A DNA stretch of 24,400 nucleotides from a virus. The stretch lies in IMG/VR virus record IMGVR_UViG_3300020001_000007, positions 1 through 24,400 of that record; one strand, written 5' to 3'. A program made the position numbers and the translations under genes. The notes under the pieces are model-generated. The model saw only the letters and a program-made list of their open reading frames with translations, ran no database searches and was not told where the DNA came from. Shown here in pieces: positions 3,609 through 24,359 of the stretch (positions are counted from its first letter, which is position 1; each line of letters starts with the position of its first letter).

Positions 3609-4316
3609 TTAAAGTGTATATTTAAACCTCAAGTTGAACGTGTGGGCAGTTGGCTTGAAAGAAAACCCTCCAGCTGTATCTATTTTAATATTCATGATGG
3701 CAGGATAATTGATAACTTCATATTCGATGCCAATTCCAAAATTCTTGTTAATGAAATAATCTATACCACCGCCAATCAGGATGCCTTTTTGTACCCTATG
3801 TATGCTTGCGATGTCCTTTGGATTTAAAAGATAATTTTGATTTCTGAAAGTCAATGCAAAGCGGCTTAATGCTATTCCTGATTTTAGGTAAAATACATTG
3901 TTGCAATGGACAAACCCGATTTTTGCGGCAATGCCCCCCTTGTGATTGTTTTTCATATACATAAAATAGTTAATGTAACCTGGAAGGCTATTCTCTTCTT
4001 TTTCAATGACAATGTTGGCGTATTGGTAAAAACCTTCTACTGCAATATAAAGATTTCTATCAAAAATCTTTTGGTAACCAGCAAAAATACCTGTTGCGAG
4101 ACCCTTTTCTCCAATACTTATTACCCTGTCAGATATCTGAAAGTTAAGGGTTCTATTCAATTGTCCTACAAGAGTGCTATACCCAAGGCCTAATCCGCCA
4201 TAAAATCCATCATTGATGGTAGAAACTTTATTAAGGCGCGGCTCGCAAGAGATACTCACGTTTGCGTTAGCTGCTATAAATAAAGTTAATATAAAAACAA
4301 ATAGTTTACTGATCAT
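3609..4316 (-). CDS. Outer-membrane beta-barrel protein
   Basis: A 235-residue protein with a Sec signal peptide (MISKLFVFILTLFIAANANV, cleavage probably near residues 17-20). The mature part has alternating hydrophobic/polar strands typical of small eight-stranded barrels: a first strand 'GFYGGLGLGYSTL', a 'YFINKNFGIGIEYEV' strand near the C-terminus and a last strand 'HTFNLRFKYTL'. This fits the OmpA/opacity-type surface-antigen superfamily common in intracellular alphaproteobacteria. It is the last gene of the leftward recombination operon, 40 bases after the 208-residue gene, with a GAGGG ribosome site. Phage-encoded barrels such as lambda Lom modify the host surface during lysogeny; that role here is inference. 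A second unrelated-looking barrel is encoded at 20214-20882. Confidence 0.75.
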   Translation of the reverse strand: MISKLFVFILTLFIAANANVSISCEPRLNKVSTINDGFYGGLGLGYSTLVGQLNRTLNFQISDRVISIGEKGLATGIFAGYQKIFDRNLYIAVEGFYQYANIVIEKEENSLPGYINYFMYMKNNHKGGIAAKIGFVHCNNVFYLKSGIALSRFALTFRNQNYLLNPKDIASIHRVQKGILIGGGIDYFINKNFGIGIEYEVINYPAIMNIKIDTAGGFSFKPTAHTFNLRFKYTL

Positions 4317-9064: not shown

Positions 9065-9182
9065 GATCGAGAGATATTAGGCCCTAAGAGATAATATGCC
9101 ATATCTTTAATAGATAACACGTCCTGTCTTTATAGGGCACATTATCCATTATTGCAATGTTTTTTTTAACTTATAATAATAC
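9065..9182 (+). promoter_or_regulatory. Operator-like palindromes and initiator promoter region
   Basis: The 490 bases between the leftward operon and the initiator gene contain no plausible gene. This part has clustered short dyads: TTAGG-C-CCTAA near 9077-9090, and several AGATA/TATCT half-sites between about 9070 and 9120. A TATAAT lies at 9172-9177, with TTGCAA at 9152-9157 as the nearest -35-like box. That spacing is 14 bases, but 16 if the overlapping TAATAA is used. The initiator ATG follows at 9207. The cluster is a reasonable place for a repressor or for the initiator to bind; no repressor gene is in the window. Confidence 0.35.
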
Positions 9183-9206: not shown

Positions 9207-10271
9207 ATGTCCTATATTACTGAAAGACCTGATAAAATTTCAGGGCTTTCCCATATCTTCTCCCCACTCCCCAACTGGATTCTGTCAAGAAAAGAGATAA
9301 GTTCCAATGCTAAAATGATTTACGCTCGCCTTTTGCAATACAAGGGGAAGAAAGATCATGCTTATCCCAGGCGTCAGGAACTGGCTGATGAGTGTGGCCT
9401 TGAGGTCAAAACAGTTGCAAGAGGTCTGCAGGAGCTTAAAAAAAACAATCTTATCTTTGCAGAACGGCGAGGGAATGCCCGCTCAAATGCTTATAAATTC
9501 CTTGTGCATCCCTGGATGTCAGATGGGAAGACATACAAATCTAAAAGCGTAGAGGCACAAGTCACTTCTATTGACAAAATTGATGGGACAGATTTGTCCT
9601 CTCAAAACAAAATTGATGGGACAGATTTGTCCTCTCATGATGGGACAGATTTGTCCCATCCCTATGAAAAGATAATTGAAAATAAAAAAGTAGAAGAGAA
9701 AAGGGATTTTTCGACAACATCTTATGATTTTAAAAAAGAGTTCAAAGAGGAATTCGAGGAGTTTTGGAATGAATATCCCCTCAAACGTCACAAAAAGCTT
9801 ACCTCCACGAATTTTATAACAGCCAGGGAGATAGCTTCTTTTGCCGATATCATGAAAAAAGTTAAATCTTACAAACGCATGGCTCAACACAACAATGCAG
9901 AGAAATTTTATATGAGCTCCCACAAATGGTTAGAGGAAGAAAGGTGGAATGATGATTACGGGGAGTTTGAGAAAGAGTGGAAAGCCACAGAAGCCCTCCT
10001 TGTTGCCTCTGTTCTCCCCGAGGAATACAAGGATAATTGGGAAATAATTTCAAAGCAGCTTAAGGAAAGGAAAGGAAAGGCACTACACAAATCCTGGTTT
10101 GAAAAGATATGTCTGGCATGCGTAAAAGGGGATACAGCTACGATTTACACTGCTGGACGATTTGTCAAGAATTATACCGCACAACATTTTTCCTCAGATA
10201 TCCTTCCCTTAATCCAGGATATTTACCCGAGTGTAAGCCATTTGAAATTCAAGGTGATTCCTCCCAAGTGA
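9207..10271 (+). CDS. Phage replication initiator (lambda O-like arrangement)
   Basis: A 354-residue protein in three parts. Residues about 15-105 form a winged helix of the HTH_36/O-type: 'WILSRKEISSNAKMIYARLL', then 'AYPRRQELADECGLEVKTVA' and a 'RGLQELKKNNLIF' recognition region. Residues about 122-155 are a repetitive linker, 'KIDGTDLSS' twice plus 'DGTDLS', encoded by DNA iterons. The C-terminal half has the 'FEEFWNEYPLKRHKK' and 'SSHKWLEEERWNDD' motifs frequent in phage and plasmid initiators. It ends in about 75 residues (W274 onward) resembling DnaA domain I ('LHKSWFEKICLACVKGDTAT', 'AGRFVKNYTAQHF'), which in DnaA contacts the helicase. No separate helicase or loader gene is visible, so it probably binds the internal origin and recruits host DnaB. 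Confidence 0.82.
   Translation: MSYITERPDKISGLSHIFSPLPNWILSRKEISSNAKMIYARLLQYKGKKDHAYPRRQELADECGLEVKTVARGLQELKKNNLIFAERRGNARSNAYKFLVHPWMSDGKTYKSKSVEAQVTSIDKIDGTDLSSQNKIDGTDLSSHDGTDLSHPYEKIIENKKVEEKRDFSTTSYDFKKEFKEEFEEFWNEYPLKRHKKLTSTNFITAREIASFADIMKKVKSYKRMAQHNNAEKFYMSSHKWLEEERWNDDYGEFEKEWKATEALLVASVLPEEYKDNWEIISKQLKERKGKALHKSWFEKICLACVKGDTATIYTAGRFVKNYTAQHFSSDILPLIQDIYPSVSHLKFKVIPPK
9574..9660 (+). repeat. Iterons of a probable replication origin inside the initiator gene
   Basis: Two identical 31-base copies lie at 9574-9604 and 9607-9637 (period 33), and a third partial copy at 9638-9660. All share the 19-base core TGATGGGACAGATTTGTCC. Each core contains the dyad GGACA-GATT-TGTCC. In the third copy the arms extend to nine bases (GATGGGACA/TGTCCCATC). 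The next 80 bases (9661-9740) are A- and purine-rich, as in a DNA unwinding element. Lambdoid origins have the same arrangement: iterons within gene O followed by an AT-rich stretch. The repeats also keep frame, giving the KIDGTDLSS peptide repeat. Confidence 0.75.
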
Positions 10272-12243: not shown

Positions 12244-12623
12244 CAGATGGAAAGAAAGAAAAAGAATCCCTGAAAAATTCTGAGAACACTAAATTCTATC
12301 AACTTATAAAGCTCCTCAATGACTCAGAATCCCACTGGAAATTCTGGATAGATAAGAAGAATTTTGGAGATATAAACGGTCTTGTCCCTATCGAAAGATT
12401 CATAGAAAGGGAAAGAGGAAGTATATACTCTCCTTTTATTGATAAAATATCGGACAGATGCTTTAAATTTGTAGTAATAGATATTATAGAAGAAGATTCA
12501 CAAGAACTTCATACAAATGAAAATGATGTAAAAAGGAAAAAAATATATTCAGATAAAGGTATTATTTATTTTAAACATAACAATATTGATTTTTTGTATA
12601 AAGAGGTGAAAAAGATTTCGTGA
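12240..12623 (+). CDS. Hypothetical protein, 127 residues
   Basis: No family recognised. A soluble charged protein, Lys/Glu/Asp-rich: 'KFYQLIKLLNDSESHWKFWI', 'IERFIERERGSIYSPFIDKI', and a strand-rich C-terminus 'GIIYFKHNNIDFLYKEVKKI'. Its ATG overlaps the preceding stop (ATGA) and its TGA overlaps the GTG start of the next gene. This indicates translational coupling within the rusA unit. Confidence 0.6.
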   Translation: MTDGKKEKESLKNSENTKFYQLIKLLNDSESHWKFWIDKKNFGDINGLVPIERFIERERGSIYSPFIDKISDRCFKFVVIDIIEEDSQELHTNENDVKRKKIYSDKGIIYFKHNNIDFLYKEVKKIS

Positions 12624-13045
12624 GTAATGAGAGGCCGATTTTGCAAAATGGAAATAAAATTGGGAATGGGCGATCAAAGGGAACTCCCAATAAAAAAACG
12701 GAATTCTTCCATTTCATTAGCGACAATATGCAAAGCTTGCTTAAATTACAGATGAAATCTGCCCTCGGGGGAGACTTGGACTCACAAAGGTTTTTGATAA
12801 ATAAAGGAATACCTACTCCAAAGCCTGGTCGTTTTGTTAAAACCTATCTGCATGAAATAAAAACCATCGAAGATGTCGCGATTGCCCAGCGAGAAGTCGT
12901 GAACGCCCTTAGCAATGCAGAAATAACTATCGAGGAAGCAGAGAAGCTCTTTGAGATTATCGCTCAACAACAGAACACGATAACGACTCTTGAGATACTG
13001 CCTCGGCTACTAACTGTGGAAGAGGCTCTTAAACAAAAAGCTTAG
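12620..13045 (+). CDS. DUF5681-like phage protein, candidate small-terminase-type
   Basis: A 141-residue protein starting at a GTG that overlaps the previous TGA. Residues 9-26 have the basic 'NGNKIGNGRSKGTPNKKTEF' element seen at the start of DUF5681 proteins ('G.P.GR.KG..NK'). The region 'KTIEDVAIAQREVVNALSNA' followed by 'EITIEEAEKLFEIIAQQQNT' matches the family's '...A...v..a...GeiT..EA..l...i' segment. Such genes often sit near terminase or transposase genes, and their function is not established. Terminase large subunit begins 2.2 kb downstream on the same strand, and no other small-subunit candidate is visible. A DNA-binding role in packaging is therefore possible, though unproven. Confidence 0.6.
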   Translation: MSNERPILQNGNKIGNGRSKGTPNKKTEFFHFISDNMQSLLKLQMKSALGGDLDSQRFLINKGIPTPKPGRFVKTYLHEIKTIEDVAIAQREVVNALSNAEITIEEAEKLFEIIAQQQNTITTLEILPRLLTVEEALKQKA

Positions 13046-13086
13046 GAAAAATTCTCGGCCTTACCTGTTTCATAATTGTATTGAGG

Positions 13087-13166
13087 TAGCCCTGACGGGT
13101 GTTGAACCCATATCTCTCGATGTAGAACGATCGAGCATCCTAACTTTTCTCTTAGACGACAGGGTC
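13087..13166 (-). tRNA. Degenerate tRNA-Glu-like sequence
   Basis: Read on the minus strand this 80-base stretch folds as a tRNA. The acceptor is GACCCTG/CAGGGCT with an A-C mismatch at pair 2, T8-C9 are followed by a GTCTA D-stem, and the T-arm is ATGGG-TTCAACA-CCCGT abutting the acceptor. The D-arm (TCGTCTA...GTTAGGA) and the end GCTACC resemble alphaproteobacterial tRNA-Glu. It departs from a normal tRNA in a D-loop about 5 bases too long without the GG pair. The anticodon arm is CTCGAT/ATCGAG with an 8-base loop containing TTC but no U before it, and the encoded end is CCT, not CCA. It is probably a decayed tRNA, a non-translating tRNA mimic, or an integration-site relic. Confidence 0.6.
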
Positions 13167-13171
13167 TTGAA

Positions 13172-13237
13172 ATCACCCTTTCCTATGGTTTCTAGATAGA
13201 AAAGGGGATGGTGTTATTTATAGCCTTTCTAGAAAGG
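13172..13237 (-). other. Hairpin and palindrome beside the tRNA-like sequence
   Basis: An imperfect 13-pair hairpin (13172-13186 with 13196-13209, one bulge and one mismatch, nine-base loop) lies 5 bases upstream of the tRNA-like sequence on the minus strand. A perfect 14-base palindrome CCTTTCTAGAAAGG follows at 13224-13237. Neither has a convincing T-tract, so they are unlikely to be simple terminators. They could be processing signals of a leftward transcript that ends in the tRNA-like element. Confidence 0.4.
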
Positions 13238-13245
13238 TTTGTATA

Positions 13246-13521
13246 TTACGTAATCTTGTCTAATAAATCTTTTTTTCCAACTTCAAGTGCAGTTAATAAA
13301 GTAGATATTTCTTCGACATTACCATGATATCCACATATAGTAAGTCCTAGTCTTTTTTTAGGTTGTTCATTTCCATCTATTGTTGCAATAAAAAAAGCCT
13401 TCAATTCTCCTATTTTATTAATTTTTTCAACATATTTATTAAAACTGGTAGAAGCTTTTTCAGATTTCGGTTTTTTATCTCTAGTTTCTTTTATTTGATT
13501 GATATCGATTACGTTGGTCAT
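13246..13521 (-). CDS. Hypothetical protein, 91 residues
   Basis: No family recognised. The N-terminus is charged ('IDINQIKETRDKKPKSEKAS') and followed by a helix 'FNKYVEKINKIGELKAF'. A strand-turn region 'FFIATIDGNEQPKKRLGLTI' and a C-terminal helix 'ISTLLTALEVGKKDLLDKIT' complete it. It starts 4 bases after the Hfq-like gene stop and is the last protein gene of the leftward cassette, before the hairpin and tRNA-like sequence. Confidence 0.55.
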   Translation of the reverse strand: MTNVIDINQIKETRDKKPKSEKASTSFNKYVEKINKIGELKAFFIATIDGNEQPKKRLGLTICGYHGNVEEISTLLTALEVGKKDLLDKIT

Positions 13522-13525
13522 GTTC

Positions 13526-13786
13526 TTATTTTTCTTCTGATATTATAATAGTTGCGATAGCAGGTTTAAAAATGAGGCACAAAGTTTCTTGATTCCTCTC
13601 TGTTTTCTTCAAGATAACTGAAGAATTGTCAAATTCACAGACAATTCCATGTAGTTTAATGCCACTTACGAGGTATATAGTCGCATTATGACCTGTCTTA
13701 AATATGTTTTTAATGAATACGTCTTCTATATTATTAATCACCTTAGAACTCACCACTTCCTCCGTTTTAAATAATTTTTTCCACAT
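13526..13786 (-). CDS. Hfq-like Sm-fold RNA-binding protein
   Basis: An 86-residue protein whose residues 20-82 align with Hfq. 'IEDVFIKNIF' matches the N-terminal helix (LQDVFLN in alphaproteobacteria). 'ATIYLVSGIKLHGIVCEFDN' matches Sm1 (...IYLVNGIKLQG.I..FD). 'LCLIFKPAIATII' matches Sm2 (QMVYKHAIST). The Sm1 Asp, the distal-face Tyr and the proximal-face Lys are kept, but the conserved His of YKHA is Pro (P75), and three or four extra residues sit between Sm1 and Sm2. Hfq is a hexameric RNA chaperone pairing small RNAs with mRNAs. The ATG was chosen because GGAAAGG precedes it; a longer frame starts at TTG inside the previous gene. A dominant-negative, phage-specific or host-mimicking role is possible. 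Confidence 0.8.
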   Translation of the reverse strand: MWKKLFKTEEVVSSKVINNIEDVFIKNIFKTGHNATIYLVSGIKLHGIVCEFDNSSVILKKTERNQETLCLIFKPAIATIIISEEK

Positions 13787-13803
13787 TTTTTTTGCCTTTC
13801 CTT

Positions 13804-14073
13804 TTAAATAAAACAACGACTTCTTTCATAATAATCTTCTATATCATTAACCACATTTGTGAGGAAGGATAGTAATGATTTTTGACTGCACGATCTCTTA
13901 TCATAATTAATTGACCCGCCTGCATCAATAATGTACGCACTATAATAATCTGGTTTTTCTCTTAAATGAGCTATTGCCTTACCGTTCTTAGTAATATCGT
14001 ATTGAGACTGAGAATTTTCAAAAGTATTATGGGTTTCATATACTTCATATCCTTTTATTTTAAGTGGCTTCAT
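13804..14073 (-). CDS. Hypothetical protein, 89 residues
   Basis: The start was placed at the second ATG (MKPLKIKGYEVYE), which has GAGGA 8 bases upstream inside the end of the preceding gene; the first ATG lies before that site. The first half is strand-rich ('YEVYETHNTFENSQSQYDIT', 'AIAHLREKPDYYSAYIIDAG'), the second a helix 'SLLSFLTNVVNDIEDYYERS'. It follows the antitoxin-like gene immediately, where a toxin would usually be. However, it lacks recognisable RelE/YafQ signatures, so I do not call it a toxin. Confidence 0.55.
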   Translation of the reverse strand: MKPLKIKGYEVYETHNTFENSQSQYDITKNGKAIAHLREKPDYYSAYIIDAGGSINYDKRSCSQKSLLSFLTNVVNDIEDYYERSRCFI

Positions 14074-14074
14074 T

Positions 14075-14452
14075 TTATTTTTCCTCTTCATTGTTGTTAA
14101 GTCGCACTTTAACTTTGAATGGTAACCCTTGGTGTCGGATTATTTCATTGTAAAAAATATTGAATAAGGAGGTAGGCGTTAATCCTAATGATTTTATGAT
14201 CTTATCGGCCTCTTCCTTGATCTTTTTGTCAATGCGGCACATATATCCAACCTTTTTTTCCTTATTATGTTGAGGAATATCAAAGGGAATTTGCCTATTT
14301 TCTATTATCATTTCATAAAATAGTTTAATCACAGAAGTAGGAGTGTATCCTAACTTTCGTATAATTTTTTCTGCTTCTTTTTTAATTTCCTTATCTATAG
14401 TAGTAGATAAATATGAAACCCAAGTAGATGAAACCCATTTTTTCTTAATCAA
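14075..14452 (-). CDS. Tandem RelB/DinJ-type ribbon-helix-helix protein (orphan antitoxin-like)
   Basis: A 125-residue protein made of two copies of the RelB/DinJ DNA-binding fold. Residues 14-59 read 'YLSTTIDKEIKKEAEKIIRK', then 'LGYTPTSVIKLFYEMIIENR' and QIPFDI. Residues 70-115 read 'YMCRIDKKIKEEADKIIKSL', then 'GLTPTSLFNIFYNEIIRHQG' and LPFKV. Normal DinJ/RelB proteins carry one copy and dimerise, with the N-terminal strand entering the DNA groove; here one chain would form a complete dimer-like unit. The short C-terminus lacks a toxin-wrapping tail. The start is a TTG with GGAG 10 bases upstream, since no earlier ATG exists. No RelE/YafQ-type toxin is adjacent, so it may be a repressor or an antidote to a host toxin. 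Confidence 0.78.
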   Translation of the reverse strand: MIKKKWVSSTWVSYLSTTIDKEIKKEAEKIIRKLGYTPTSVIKLFYEMIIENRQIPFDIPQHNKEKKVGYMCRIDKKIKEEADKIIKSLGLTPTSLFNIFYNEIIRHQGLPFKVKVRLNNNEEEK

Positions 14453-14509
14453 TTAATATAAACTCCAGTTTTTCTCTATTCCTAATAGTTCTAGTCATTA
14501 AATATAGGT

Positions 14510-15094
14510 TCAACTAAGTTTGTCATGTGAGTCCTCCTTAATTATAAAACCGTAACCGTAACTGGAACCGTAACCGTAACCGGAACCGTCACCGGAACCG
14601 GAACCGGAACCGGAACCGGAACCGGAACCGGAACCGGAACCGGAACCGTAACCGTAACCGGAACCGTCACCGGAACCGGAACCGGAACCGTCACCGGAAC
14701 CGGAACCGGAACCGTCACCGGAACCGGAACCGTCACCGGAACCGGAACCGTCACCGTCACCGTAACCGGAACCGGAACCGGAACCGGAATAAGCTTTCCA
14801 TGGCTTTACATCCTTAATTGCTTTCTGAGCAATATCAGAAACTTCTAATATTTCTTTAGCATCCAAGATAATAATTACCGGAACTTCTGATGGGAATTTA
14901 CAATTATCTGGTTTTTTGGGTCCTGTTACAGAAAGTTCTGAAGCTGATGCGGCACCATCCCAATACCATAATCTACGGACATTCAATAGTTTTACTACTG
15001 TTCCTTCAATATTCTCTAATGTTCCAGAAAAAAGCCCAGAATTCATGCCACGCACTATCACATATTTACCTTTTAATTCAGATCCTATCATCAT
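14510..15094 (-). CDS. DUF6948-like protein with C-terminal Gly-Ser/Asp/Tyr repeats
   Basis: A 194-residue protein. Residues 1-102 match a phage family I know as DUF6948: 'GKYVIVRGMNSGLFSGTLEN', 'VRRLWYWDGAASASELSVTG', and PDNCKFPSEVPVIIILDAKE followed by PWKAY. Residues 103-182 are pure dipeptide repeats (GS, GD, GY), ending with a short unique tail IIKEDSHDKLS. The function is unknown. The N-domain looks like a small strand-rich fold, and the tail should be disordered and mildly acidic. AAGGAAGAAAG precedes the ATG, and a good leftward promoter lies upstream, making this the first gene of the cassette with the antitoxin-like and Hfq-like genes. Confidence 0.7.
   Translation of the reverse strand: MMIGSELKGKYVIVRGMNSGLFSGTLENIEGTVVKLLNVRRLWYWDGAASASELSVTGPKKPDNCKFPSEVPVIIILDAKEILEVSDIAQKAIKDVKPWKAYSGSGSGSGYGDGDGSGSGDGSGSGDGSGSGSGDGSGSGSGDGSGYGYGSGSGSGSGSGSGSGSGSGDGSGYGYGSSYGYGFIIKEDSHDKLS
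14549..14789. repeat. Hexanucleotide tandem repeat array
   Basis: About 40 units of the form CCGGAA, CCGTAA or CCGTCA run through the end of the DUF6948-like gene. On the coding strand they read as Gly plus Ser, Tyr or Asp codons. Higher-order blocks such as 'GGAACCGTCACC' recur, so unequal exchange or slippage probably shaped the array. It is far more GC-rich than its surroundings. Length variation in steps of six would keep the frame. Confidence 0.9.
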
Positions 15095-15144
15095 ACTTTC
15101 TTCCTTTTTGTTAAAAAAAATTAATTATTACCTCTCACAAAATC

Positions 15145-15173
15145 CTTATAACAAACCTGTTTCATTGTGTCAT
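15145..15173 (-). promoter_or_regulatory. Candidate promoter of the leftward regulatory cassette
   Basis: On the minus strand ATGACA (15173-15168) is followed after 17 bases by TATAAG (15150-15145); each box matches five of six consensus positions. It lies about 50 bases upstream of the DUF6948-like gene start and drives away from the terminase gene. Confidence 0.5.
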
Positions 15174-15271
15174 TTGATATGTGACTCTTCTAAAAATAAA
15201 TAGATAACTTGCCTTTCCTTTAAATCAGCGCAACAATATTTCTCGTAGGTTATTCAACGGGACTATATTGA

Positions 15272-16876
15272 TTGCGCACTTCTTCATTATTGAGACTGCT
15301 TGCTAATTTCGAATCCAGATTATCGCAAATTTCTCCTACTATTGACTTCCGATATCAGGATGAAGCCTCTGCCTGTGAGGAGGATTTCCATACCTTTTTA
15401 AGAGCAGCATGGCATGTTATAGAAGGAGATCGACCATTTATAGATGGATGGCACATCCAGGCCGAATGTGAGCACTATGAAGCCTTGTTCTACGGAAATA
15501 TATTAAAGCTCATTATTAACGTTCCTCCTGGTACCTGCAAATCAACGATTGGCTCAGTGGCCTTTCCTGCCTGGGTATGGACTAAAACCCCTTCCTCTCA
15601 ATTCCTTTATGCCTCATACGGTATGACCTTGGCTGTTCGGGACAGCGTAGCTTGGGGAAACAAATGCCAACTCACAAGGGATATTAATACTAAGACACGG
15701 TTTGCGAACGCTCAGGCTGGATACAGGATTGCAACCAGTATCGGTGGAACAACAACAGGGGAGCACGTTGACTACGAGTTCTTTGATGATCCTAACAATA
15801 CGGCGAATGTTGAATCAGAAGTTATACGAACGGACACTAACATTAAATTTGACCGTGTTTTCTCAGGTCGTTTCAATGATCCTAAAACGGGCCGTTTATG
15901 TGTTGTTCAGCAACGGACACACTTTCAGGATTTGTCAGGCCACATATTATCTAAAAATATTCCAGGTCTAATTCATTTATGTTTACCTCAGGAATATGAG
16001 GTAAGCAGACAGTGTACGACCATTCCCCTTAAGAGCACGAAAGGTGAGAAATGGGAAGATCCTAGAAAAGAAGAAGGGCAATTATTATGGCCTGAATTTT
16101 TTGATAAGAAATCCGTAGAACTAGGAAAAATAGACTTAGGTGGTGAATACGCTATTGCGGGACAGTATCAACAACGTCCTTCCCCAGGCCAAGGCGGTAT
16201 CTTTAAAAAGAAGGATTTTCAGTGGTGGAAACAGAAATACCCTCCCCGTTGTCATTTTGTACTGCAATCCTGGGATACGGCATTCAGCAAATCCGCAACA
16301 GCCTCCTGGAGTGCATGCACAACATGGGGCATTTTCAAAAATGACCATCAAGTCGATAACATTATCCTTTTGAGCCTATGGAGGGGAAGACTGGAAAATC
16401 CTGACGTAAGGAGAATGATCCTAAGACTTGCACATAACTATTACGACACACATACTAACTATCCTGCACCGGAAACACAGGCTTTCAAACCGGATATGAT
16501 CCTAATTGAAGGAAAAGCAAATGGGACCCCCCTTCTGCAAGACCTGCGCAGGGCTGGACTTATTATCAATAGTTTTGACCCTTTAAAACATGGAGGGGGG
16601 GATAAAACATCCAGGGGGCGTGCAATATCACACCTTGTAGAAGCTGGCCTAATCTGGATACCTTCGGAGCCTCCCTTATATACAAAATTAAGGCCATTTG
16701 CAGATCTTTTCGTTGAATCATGTGCATCTTTCCCCAATGATGATGACTCAAAGGACATAGTGGACACCATGAGCCAAGCTCTGATTAAATTCAGGTTGCA
16801 AGGGCTAATAGGACACCCGGACGATGCTTATATCCAGGAGGAATTCAATCCAAACCGAGGGAAAAGAATATACTAA
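15272..16876 (+). CDS. Phage terminase large subunit
   Basis: A 534-residue packaging motor. The ATPase domain has a Walker A variant 'VPPGTCKST' (84-92) and Walker B 'YEFFDDP' (168-174), preceded by a Gly/Thr-rich 'ATSIGGTTTGEHVD'. 'QQRTHFQDLSGHIL' is the usual motif after the ATPase core. The RNase-H-like nuclease has D335 in 'SWDTAF', E413 in 'ILIEGKANGTPLLQDL' and D498 in 'KDIVDTMSQAL', so all three acidic residues are present. The enzyme cuts the concatemer and pumps DNA through the portal. The frame begins with TTG at 15272 and no ATG is available before the conserved region; no strong ribosome site is visible, so the exact start is uncertain. The portal gene lies 690 bases further on, beyond an opposite-strand gene. 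Confidence 0.95.
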   Translation: MRTSSLLRLLANFESRLSQISPTIDFRYQDEASACEEDFHTFLRAAWHVIEGDRPFIDGWHIQAECEHYEALFYGNILKLIINVPPGTCKSTIGSVAFPAWVWTKTPSSQFLYASYGMTLAVRDSVAWGNKCQLTRDINTKTRFANAQAGYRIATSIGGTTTGEHVDYEFFDDPNNTANVESEVIRTDTNIKFDRVFSGRFNDPKTGRLCVVQQRTHFQDLSGHILSKNIPGLIHLCLPQEYEVSRQCTTIPLKSTKGEKWEDPRKEEGQLLWPEFFDKKSVELGKIDLGGEYAIAGQYQQRPSPGQGGIFKKKDFQWWKQKYPPRCHFVLQSWDTAFSKSATASWSACTTWGIFKNDHQVDNIILLSLWRGRLENPDVRRMILRLAHNYYDTHTNYPAPETQAFKPDMILIEGKANGTPLLQDLRRAGLIINSFDPLKHGGGDKTSRGRAISHLVEAGLIWIPSEPPLYTKLRPFADLFVESCASFPNDDDSKDIVDTMSQALIKFRLQGLIGHPDDAYIQEEFNPNRGKRIY

Positions 16877-20213: not shown

Positions 20214-20882
20214 ATGTTAAAGAATTTATTTTTTGTTTCACTCAAGGCATTTGCTGTTTTTGGATTGTTAGCGAACTTCTCAAACGCAAATGCAAACAAT
20301 CCTTGGGAGCAGCGTTTCTACGGAGGACTTTCCTTGGGAGGAGCTTCCTTAAACACACAAAATAATTTATCCGTTAGAAGTTCACAAATTTCTAAAAAAA
20401 CAAATGATACCAATGTTCATGGGGAGTTAATTGGTGGATATGAGATTTCCAATCAGAATATCTTTCTAGCTCTGGAAACTGATATAGGCTTATCAAGCGC
20501 AGCAACAGAAGAATTGTTAACCCTGGCTGGCATTCAACATCCTTTTACAATTGAATCAAAAAATGGATTTGGTTTTGCTGCCCATATAGGAAAATCTATT
20601 GATGAAAATCACAGGGTTTACCTTAAGTTAGGGATTGAAATCAAGAAATTCCAGACAGAACTGAAAGGTCTAAACCGTTTTACAGATCATAAGAAATCAT
20701 TTAATGGGATAGGTTTCGTTCCTGGGATAGGAATAGAAAAGAAACTGACTGACACGGTAAATTTCAGGACAGAGTATAAAGTTTCCCTTTATTCTGCTAA
20801 AAAGCTTGTTTCCGAGCATACTACTCATACTATCAAGACAGTAACACATCATCTAACGGCAGGGTTTTATTTCAAGACATAA
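20214..20882 (+). CDS. Second outer-membrane beta-barrel protein
   Basis: A 222-residue protein with a clear Sec signal peptide (about 1-27, hydrophobic 'AFAVFGLLANFSNANA' ending in an AxA-type site). The mature protein begins NNPWEQRFYGGLSLGGASL. It shows strand repeats ('ELIGGYEISNQNIFLALETD', 'GFGFAAHIGKSIDENHRVYL', 'IGFVPGIGIEKKLTDTVNFR') and ends 'HHLTAGFYFKT', a C-terminal strand with alternating aromatics. This is the same general class as the barrel at 3609-4316, but the two share little direct sequence. It follows a terminator on the same strand. Late or lysogenic surface alteration, adhesion or superinfection blocking are possible roles. Confidence 0.75.
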   Translation: MLKNLFFVSLKAFAVFGLLANFSNANANNPWEQRFYGGLSLGGASLNTQNNLSVRSSQISKKTNDTNVHGELIGGYEISNQNIFLALETDIGLSSAATEELLTLAGIQHPFTIESKNGFGFAAHIGKSIDENHRVYLKLGIEIKKFQTELKGLNRFTDHKKSFNGIGFVPGIGIEKKLTDTVNFRTEYKVSLYSAKKLVSEHTTHTIKTVTHHLTAGFYFKT

Positions 20883-21562: not shown

Positions 21563-22033
21563 TTATTTCCCTTCGTTAGTCTTATCTTTATACCTCAACA
21601 GATTGCATTCAATCTTAAGCCATTCCCCGTTTTGATATATTCCAATATAAGAAAGGCCGTCAGAGTTATAAATACAATCACCCCTTGGGAACCTTTTCAT
21701 AACAATCTGATGGCCTTTCTTATATTGGTCATTAACTAACGAATCCTTCTGTTTTGAGTCATTTTTATTTGCCTCGTTTCGTATGTCTAATGCTCTTCGA
21801 TAATGCATATAAAAAGCATTTTCTTCTAAGGTAGGTTCTATAACACGATTCATTTTATTTTGTATCATAGAAAACGTTGCTTTATTTTTCTTGTCATCTA
21901 TATAAGAGATCATATCCTCAAAAGTCTTAAATTTTGGAAGCTTCTTATTAGCAATATTAAAGATACGTCGCATTTCTATTATTTCCTTAATACCTCTTAC
22001 AATACCTTTGAATATATCAAAAACCTCACTCAT
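21563..22033 (-). CDS. Hypothetical protein, 156 residues
   Basis: The start was set at [18 protein letters not shown] because this ATG overlaps the upstream stop (ATGAGTGA); an earlier start would lie well inside the preceding gene. Helical, basic N-terminal half ('[20 protein letters not shown]'), a Lys/Asp-rich middle, and a C-terminal strand-rich module. That module reads '[20 protein letters not shown]' then [18 protein letters not shown], a pattern common in small phage 'surface-turn' domains. No enzymatic motif is visible. Confidence 0.5.
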
Positions 22034-22295
22034 TGTACGGCTCATAAGAAGCATAGAAGATATCCTTCTTGCACGGATAAATCTCACCTTTGACGCCTTT
22101 GATAATCATGTCGCCTTTTTTGGCTGTCATAACACCTTCAAGCGTTTTAATAGAACATGAAGAGGTACCCCAAACCCCAGGTTCAGCATACGTAATAATT
22201 TCATTTGTCCACACTTTATTAAAAAACCAATCTGGCACGTAATCTTTTCCAAGCTCAAAAGCCTCAACGACTATGGGTTTCTTAACGTATTTCAC
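22026..22295 (-). CDS. Conserved small phage protein (KKP...TLEG...GD.I..G..GE.YPCK family)
   Basis: About 89 residues. It carries the pattern of a very widespread phage protein of unknown function. The N-terminus is '[20 protein letters not shown]' with DWF. The core is '[20 protein letters not shown]', followed by '[17 protein letters not shown]'. Homologues usually begin 'MkYrKKP', which suggests the GTG at 22295 with GAGG 9 bases upstream; an ATG nine bases earlier has its ribosome site directly adjacent and is less likely. A compact beta-rich fold is expected. It overlaps both neighbours and is part of the coupled accessory block. Confidence 0.7.
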
Positions 22296-23987: not shown

Positions 23988-24112
23988 TCTTGGGGGTAGG
24001 GATTACACCTACATTCTAATCATACTAGGAAGTCGACGAAAAGTATGACTTAGAGTTTTTGGACATCCTTCTTATTTATAGCGCTAGAAGTTAGTCATTA
24101 AACTACCCCAAT
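23988..24112 (-). ncRNA. Structured RNA with a tRNA-like cloverleaf
   Basis: This 125-base gene-free stretch folds on the minus strand into four arms. The closing stem is TTGGGG (24111-24106) with CCCCAA (23995-23990). A D-arm-like GTTTAATGACTAAC follows two bases (TA) later. Next comes CTTCT...AGAAG, with a 13-base loop. A long hairpin TCTAA-G-TCATAC/GTATGA-TTAGA has a 17-base loop. Last is GTAGG-TGTAATC-CCTAC, a five-pair stem with a seven-base loop abutting the closing stem exactly as a T-arm abuts an acceptor. The 5' end resembles tRNA-Gly (GTAGTTCAATGG). The T-loop consensus and a normal anticodon loop are missing, so it is tRNA-like rather than a standard tRNA. Confidence 0.45.
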
Positions 24113-24119
24113 TTCATTT

Positions 24120-24359
24120 TCAATAAGTTCCATCCTGTAATTTTTTTACTATAATTTGTTCGTCTATCTGAGATGAAAGGCTAGAGAACATTATATAAAG
24201 TTCATTCACAAGGTCATTATTCTCAGGACTTCCCCATTCGTTTTTTCGAGCAGCGGATAATATCATACTCAACGTTTGGACATGACACGGATATAAAGCG
24301 TAATTGTGCAAAACCTGGTCAAGCCTTGGGTGAATCTTTTGCCTTATTGTCATTTTCAT
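24120..24359 (-). CDS. Hypothetical protein, up to 79 residues
   Basis: The product starts MKMTIRQKIHPRLDQVLHNY and ends KLQDGTY; the second ATG (24353) has better spacing from GGAA and may be the true start. Helical, with 'MILSAARKNEWGSPENNDLV' and 'NELYIMFSSLSSQIDEQI'. It ends 8 bases before the tRNA-like element. No family recognised. Confidence 0.5.
   Translation of the reverse strand: MKMTIRQKIHPRLDQVLHNYALYPCHVQTLSMILSAARKNEWGSPENNDLVNELYIMFSSLSSQIDEQIIVKKLQDGTY

Follow-up and report, generated by a model that had tools for sequence, protein, structure and literature searches.

Can a phage keep the fold of a tRNA after losing the features with which a tRNA reads codons, and is what remains then a gene on its way out or an RNA retained for another purpose? 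The question is posed by a short noncoding stretch, between a rightward ORF ending at 13045 and a leftward ORF ending at 13246, in the single 24.4 kb virus record IMGVR_UViG_3300020001_000007, which comes without an attached host genome; the window analysed here is the whole stretch of 24,400 nucleotides, and coordinates refer to it. The original prediction had placed a degenerate tRNA-Glu-like RNA with a 5′ hairpin at 13087–13209. Both parts are real, although the tRNA-like part starts at 13084 and occupies 13084–13166 on the minus strand. We consider decay of a tRNA-Glu gene the most likely answer; unrelated phages conserve non-decoding RNAs of similar build, and a second job for the element is a real possibility.

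Anatomy and origin of the tRNA-Glu-like element

The acceptor, D and T arms of tRNA-Glu are kept, as had been predicted, with 21 of 22 pairs formed (17 Watson-Crick and four G-U). The one mismatch, A2xC71, breaks pair 2-71 of the acceptor (GACCCTG/CAGGGCT). The D-stem (GTCT/GGAT) preserves U11-A24 and U13-G22 as in tRNA-Glu, the variable loop (AGAT) is short like that of tRNA-Glu, and the T-arm (ATGGG-TTCAACA-CCCGT) is flawless. Because the four G-U pairs would vanish on the opposite strand, the minus strand is favoured as the RNA. The changes fall mainly in loops, a bias that is not significant with only ~4 events. The D-loop (AAGAGAAAAGTTA) is over-long at 13 nt and contains no adjacent GG, and the anticodon stem (CTCGAT/ATCGAG) closes an 8-nt loop (CGTTCTAC) in which TTC is retained and G replaces U33; these departures, like the acceptor mismatch, had been read correctly from the start. 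The 3′ end is A-CCU, so the absence of CCA claimed earlier is right in effect: CC is present, and CCA is not encoded. By itself, the folding energy of the element is ordinary (z -1.05).

Covariance-model scoring bears out the tRNA-Glu-like character of the element. The Rfam tRNA model aligns 13084–13166 (minus strand) end to end at 25.6 bits, against a gathering score of 29; the E-value of the match is 0.19 when the window is compared with all 4227 families and ~5e-5 when the tRNA family is taken alone. R1, a covariance model made from 39 viral tRNA-Glu genes, gives the element 45.6 bits (E 2e-11), with the next match in the window at 8.2 bits; because the members of R1 were chosen by a pattern drawn from the element, this score is somewhat inflated, whereas the Rfam score is independent. 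Ordinary viral tRNA-Glu genes score ~73–90 bits with R1, a range outside which the element falls, and ARAGORN run on the window does not call it. Across all IMG/VR contigs, the pattern GTCTAA..TAGGA..GGGTTCAANNCCC from the element gave 55 matches, 49 of them ARAGORN-called tRNA-Glu genes. The nearest tRNA (L140) is identical to the element over the complete 5′ acceptor strand and in the D-arm flanks (GACCCTGTCGTCTAA..GTTAGGAT), and the element matches tRNA-Glu at many conserved positions. The descent of 13084–13166 from a tRNA-Glu is well supported by these comparisons. A chance cloverleaf in intergenic DNA, with which the ordinary folding energy and the absence of a call by ARAGORN or at the Rfam gathering score would agree, has a negligible probability and is ruled out by the R1 match, ascertainment bias allowed for, and by the independent Rfam score.

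The features that the element has lost are those of decoding, and it is in this sense that the earlier description of it as degenerate or decayed is supported. In the 39 viral tRNA-Glu genes, the D-loop GG, U33 and A37 vary little or not at all (G18 invariant, G19 nearly so); the element lacks all three. All 55 pattern matches span 54–58 nt, compared with 61 nt in the element, though much longer loops were permitted. A functional tRNA-Glu has a 7-base anticodon loop with U33, adjacent G18-G19 and a fully paired acceptor; the element has none of these and can probably no longer read codons. We weighed against this an unusual tRNA-Glu whose enlarged D-loop and 8-base anticodon loop still allow it to decode GAA/GAG. 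The TTC anticodon, the U11-A24 and U13-G22 pairs and the short variable loop would suit such a tRNA; two viral tRNA-Glu (L150 and L153) combine an extra D-loop hairpin with a normal CTC anticodon loop, and phage tRNAs can be shielded from nucleases by anticodon-loop changes (PMC10264068). The loss of U33, the added anticodon-loop base, the missing adjacent GG, A2xC71, the lack of an encoded CCA and the silence of ARAGORN nevertheless make continued decoding very unlikely. A stop-codon suppressor was also considered: the loop has CTA, yet TAA (18), TGA (10) and TAG (4) all serve as stops in the window, and recoding was dropped.

Surroundings and a second tRNA-domain-like element

A leader hairpin at 13172–13209 (minus strand) precedes the element in the same orientation, with a gap of 5 nt to G1. 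Spacing and orientation agree with the original prediction; 13 pairs had been counted, and we find 14, with one bulged U and a 9-nt loop. On the minus strand the hairpin has a folding energy of -14.6 kcal/mol (z -2.66), matched by 2 of 200 shuffles, and the plus-strand fold of 13172–13209 is no better than shuffles (z -0.53). An intrinsic terminator was rejected, as no T-run follows the hairpin on either strand and a terminator scan of 12500–15300 was empty. Just upstream of the hairpin stands a perfect 14-bp palindrome, CCTTTCTAGAAAGG (13224–13237), present as one exact copy, which is possibly an operator or a small hairpin. It is enclosed by TATACA-17-TATAAA upstream of the element; chance alone would produce matches of this kind here, and a promoter of the element's own was set aside, the match being kept as a lead.

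The predicted position at the end of a leftward Hfq-like cassette was confirmed. The element lies downstream of the last cassette gene (13246–13521, minus strand), a 91-aa ORF with no Pfam or PHROG matches that ends ~80 bases upstream of G1; the Hfq-like protein itself is encoded at 13526–13816 (minus strand; Pfam Hfq PF17209, E 9e-14). Near the Hfq-like gene, 14075–14452 (minus strand) encodes a member of the RelB antitoxin family, matched over two stretches, and a DUF6948 protein (14510–15094, minus strand) bears a C-terminal Gly-Ser-Asp repeat tail that arises from 12- and 18-base DNA repeats. The window also encodes two outer-membrane beta-barrel proteins (OmpA/OMP_b-brl; 3609–4316, minus strand, and 20214–20882, plus strand), an unusual phage cargo. 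At 9070–9150, just upstream of an HTH/DnaA-N replication-like gene at 9207, is a cluster of imperfect repeats (GATATTAGGCCC, GATAATATGCC, GATAACACGTCC and the inverted GGGCACATTATC), possibly operators or iterons. An inverted repeat at 21642–21728, with 23-nt arms that are 96% complementary and 41 nt apart, lies within the ORF at 21563–22087. The best matches of the terminase and portal proteins, at ~30–43% identity, are phages such as Roseobacter phage CRP-901 and Pelagibacter phage HTVC023P.

A second tRNA-domain-like element, missed by the original prediction, occupies 23989–24112 on the minus strand and starts ~8 nt past the stop codon of the ORF at 24120–24359. It comprises an acceptor of six pairs (ATTGGGG/CCCCAAG), T8, a D-arm (GTTTAATGACTAAC) and a T-arm (GTAGG-TGTAATC-CCTAC) with a perfect T-stem; its long, expanded middle contains a strong internal hairpin, and the fold has a z of -2.59. 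A tRNA-body descriptor (acceptor, T8, D-arm and directly stacked T-arm) matches the window exactly twice, at 13084–13166 and 23989–24112, compared with 0.06 matches expected from shuffling, an expectation that is optimistic because the descriptor was written with both elements already seen. Applied to the T4 region as a control, the descriptor picked out 8 of 8 tRNAs and had no further match on their strand. Neither the Rfam tRNA model nor R1 matches the second element, and its T-arm found nothing as a search pattern. It is possibly tRNA-Trp- or tRNA-Tyr-like.

Decay, retention or attachment site

Relatives of the first element were sought by several routes. A blastn search against INPHARED returned only chance matches of 22–23 bases, and a stricter element pattern had no matches. 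IMG/VR protein scans with the neighbouring gene, the terminase and the Hfq-like protein yielded no close relatives; a portal profile search of IMG/VR yielded 80 distant relatives, 30–37% identical, and a portal search of genome contigs gave one distant portal, on a contig listed under an Actinomycetota MAG. In a search of 43 other virus records, no tRNA exceeded the Rfam cut-off. Related phages had been put forward as a source of further copies, and none was detected by R1 in 85 loci (contigs of the portal relatives in IMG/VR and named phages), where nothing scored better than E 5. No relative of the element was found by these routes.

A model of decay emerges that we hold to have about an even chance of being correct, in which a leftward operon ends in a decaying phage tRNA-Glu gene, the element. 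An ancestral phage would have acquired the gene, perhaps since GAA is among its commonest codons (61.6 per 1000 codons in the window). Short changes have enlarged the D-loop, leaving a run of A where two conserved G should adjoin; the anticodon loop has gained one base and lost U33, one acceptor pair is disrupted, and the encoded 3′ end is without CCA. Lying last in the operon, the element would be co-transcribed with it. RNase P and RNase Z might still cut at the kept acceptor, T-arm and D-arm, and such cleavage would leave the upstream mRNA with the 14-pair hairpin at its end. The more distorted element at 23989–24112 would be an older relic of like kind. Three observations argue for decay over upkeep: i) no tRNA above the Rfam cut-off occurs in the other virus records, ii) R1 detects no convincing copy among the relatives, and iii) a second, worse-preserved element is present in the same fragment. 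Other observations weaken it. Nearly all pairs survive, four of them strand-specific G-U pairs, and the 5′ hairpin beats chance. Phages tend to shed useless DNA, and this one keeps two such elements. Nor is lost decoding proof of lost function, because in unrelated phages tRNA-Glu-like RNAs that do not decode are maintained under pairing constraint.

Those RNAs came to light when IMG/VR was searched for tRNA-Glu D-arms whose D-loop is enlarged; the search returned two families. Family A (L149:9666–9758, minus strand; L155:12443–12534, minus; L164:11021–11113, minus; L174:3895–3986, plus) has a hairpin inserted in the D-loop, and six pairs capped by a loop of 4–5 bases make up its anticodon arm. 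The structure is paired in 72 of 72 cells, and six pairs are changed on both sides across three distinct sequences. In L149 and L155 the RNA lies ~10 bases before an exonuclease gene, the best relatives of which come from Cellulophaga phi38:1 and from crAss-like phages; in the crAss-like phage DAC15, an annotated tRNA-Leu occupies its place. ARAGORN missed the family A RNAs. In family B (L156:1460–2237, L158:2–890, L167:8106–8986 and L170:33–140, all minus strand), up to four tRNA-Glu-like paralogs are clustered together, on several contigs; the paralogs have a common acceptor (GGTCTGT/ACAGACT) with varying D-loop and anticodon hairpins, and the contigs carry Bacteroidota-type secreted proteins. 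Neither family was located in INPHARED by sequence search, and the window proteins have no match in the loci of either. In addition, tRNA-Glu at L150:4205–4294 and L153:9307–9396 (both minus strand), with an extra GC-rich D-loop hairpin and a normal CTC anticodon loop, are missed by ARAGORN.

Families A and B show that loss of normal decoding can coexist with a preserved fold in a tRNA-Glu-like RNA. They do not show preservation of the window element, because it is without their adjacent GG and fully paired acceptor. Descent of the element from family A was rejected: R2, a model of that family, scores the element at 28.7 bits, ordinary tRNAs match equally well, and the match shows shared tRNA-Glu ancestry only.

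Nearly as good as decay, and somewhat short of an even chance, is that the element is a retained, non-decoding tRNA-like small RNA, serving as a decoy or as a processing or stability element at the operon end. Its binders or cutters could conceivably include RNase P, RNase Z, EF-Tu, glutamyl-tRNA synthetase, a tRNA-cutting defence enzyme or the phage Hfq-like protein; both a decoy role and a connection with the Hfq-like protein are inferences. Retention is favoured by the pattern of kept pairs and altered loops, by G-U pairs that point to the minus strand, by the stable 5′ hairpin and by the occurrence of two tRNA-domain elements in 24 kb, the second beginning ~8 nt past a stop codon. A precedent exists in T4, whose small stable RNA rnaC has a T-arm and an acceptor, and families A and B are tRNA-Glu-like, without a normal anticodon loop and conserved in unrelated phages. 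The adjacent GG and fully paired acceptor that both families keep, and the element does not, count against it, as does the want of relatives in which covariation could be shown.

More tentatively, the element may belong to a class of non-decoding phage RNAs on a tRNA-Glu body that is scattered and has gone unrecognised. Such a class would keep the acceptor, T-arm and D-arm, would have a rebuilt D-loop and anticodon arm, and would have tRNA-binding proteins, of the host or its defences, as targets. If the element is a relic only, it captures, unremarkably, the loss of a tRNA gene by a phage; if it has been retained for a use, it points to phage RNAs that mimic tRNA-Glu without translating, and standard tRNA finders miss them. 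Families A and B indicate that such RNAs persist, fold intact, in other phages, and as conserved families with clear structures they would make the question of T4 rnaC/rnaD-type function testable.

A decayed integration site, also proposed originally, fares worse. Phages often integrate at tRNA genes, and the virus record L175 carries an attP-like tRNA-Glu end with a normal anticodon arm and CCA and without the 5′ half. The element, in contrast, has both tRNA halves, an altered 3′ half and no CCA, and no integrase was found among the window proteins scanned, the phage fragment being incomplete. Lacking the intact host tRNA 3′ end beside an integrase gene that marks an attP, it is highly improbable as an attP, decayed or active, matching a host tRNA-Glu gene.

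Comparison with known systems

tRNA pseudogenes were reported in a comparison of T4-like phages (PMC1524935). The element resembles phage tRNA-Glu genes and pseudogenes in its tRNA-Glu D-arm, acceptor, T-arm and TTC anticodon and in its place in a leftward cassette; unlike them, it has enlarged D- and anticodon loops, a broken acceptor pair and a CCU end, and it stands isolated, outside any tRNA cluster. Phage tRNAs with altered anticodon loops escape tRNA-cutting defences (PMC10264068, PMC11555353). Those tRNAs are likewise phage-borne with a changed anticodon loop, but they are taken as functional, whereas the element has also lost the loop length and U33.

Family A is like the element in having a tRNA-Glu body, an enlarged D-loop, an abnormal anticodon loop and no CCA, and in occurring as one copy per record between two genes. 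It differs in its adjacent GG, fully paired acceptor and covariation, and in its phages, which carry the crAss/Cellulophaga-type exonuclease; beyond tRNA-Glu, no relation by descent between the two is shown.

T4 rnaC and rnaD encode species 1 and 2, small stable RNAs of unknown function (PMC9697503). The T4 RNAs differ from the element in their proven expression and in their place beside true tRNA genes; rnaC, at 139 nt, also retains less of the cloverleaf. Like the element, rnaC is not called by ARAGORN, and the Rfam tRNA model does not call it either. In RNAs of the rnaC type, as in the element, a T-arm is stacked directly on the acceptor and the decoding features are lost; rnaC is a phage RNA that has a tRNA T-arm and acceptor without being a decoding tRNA.
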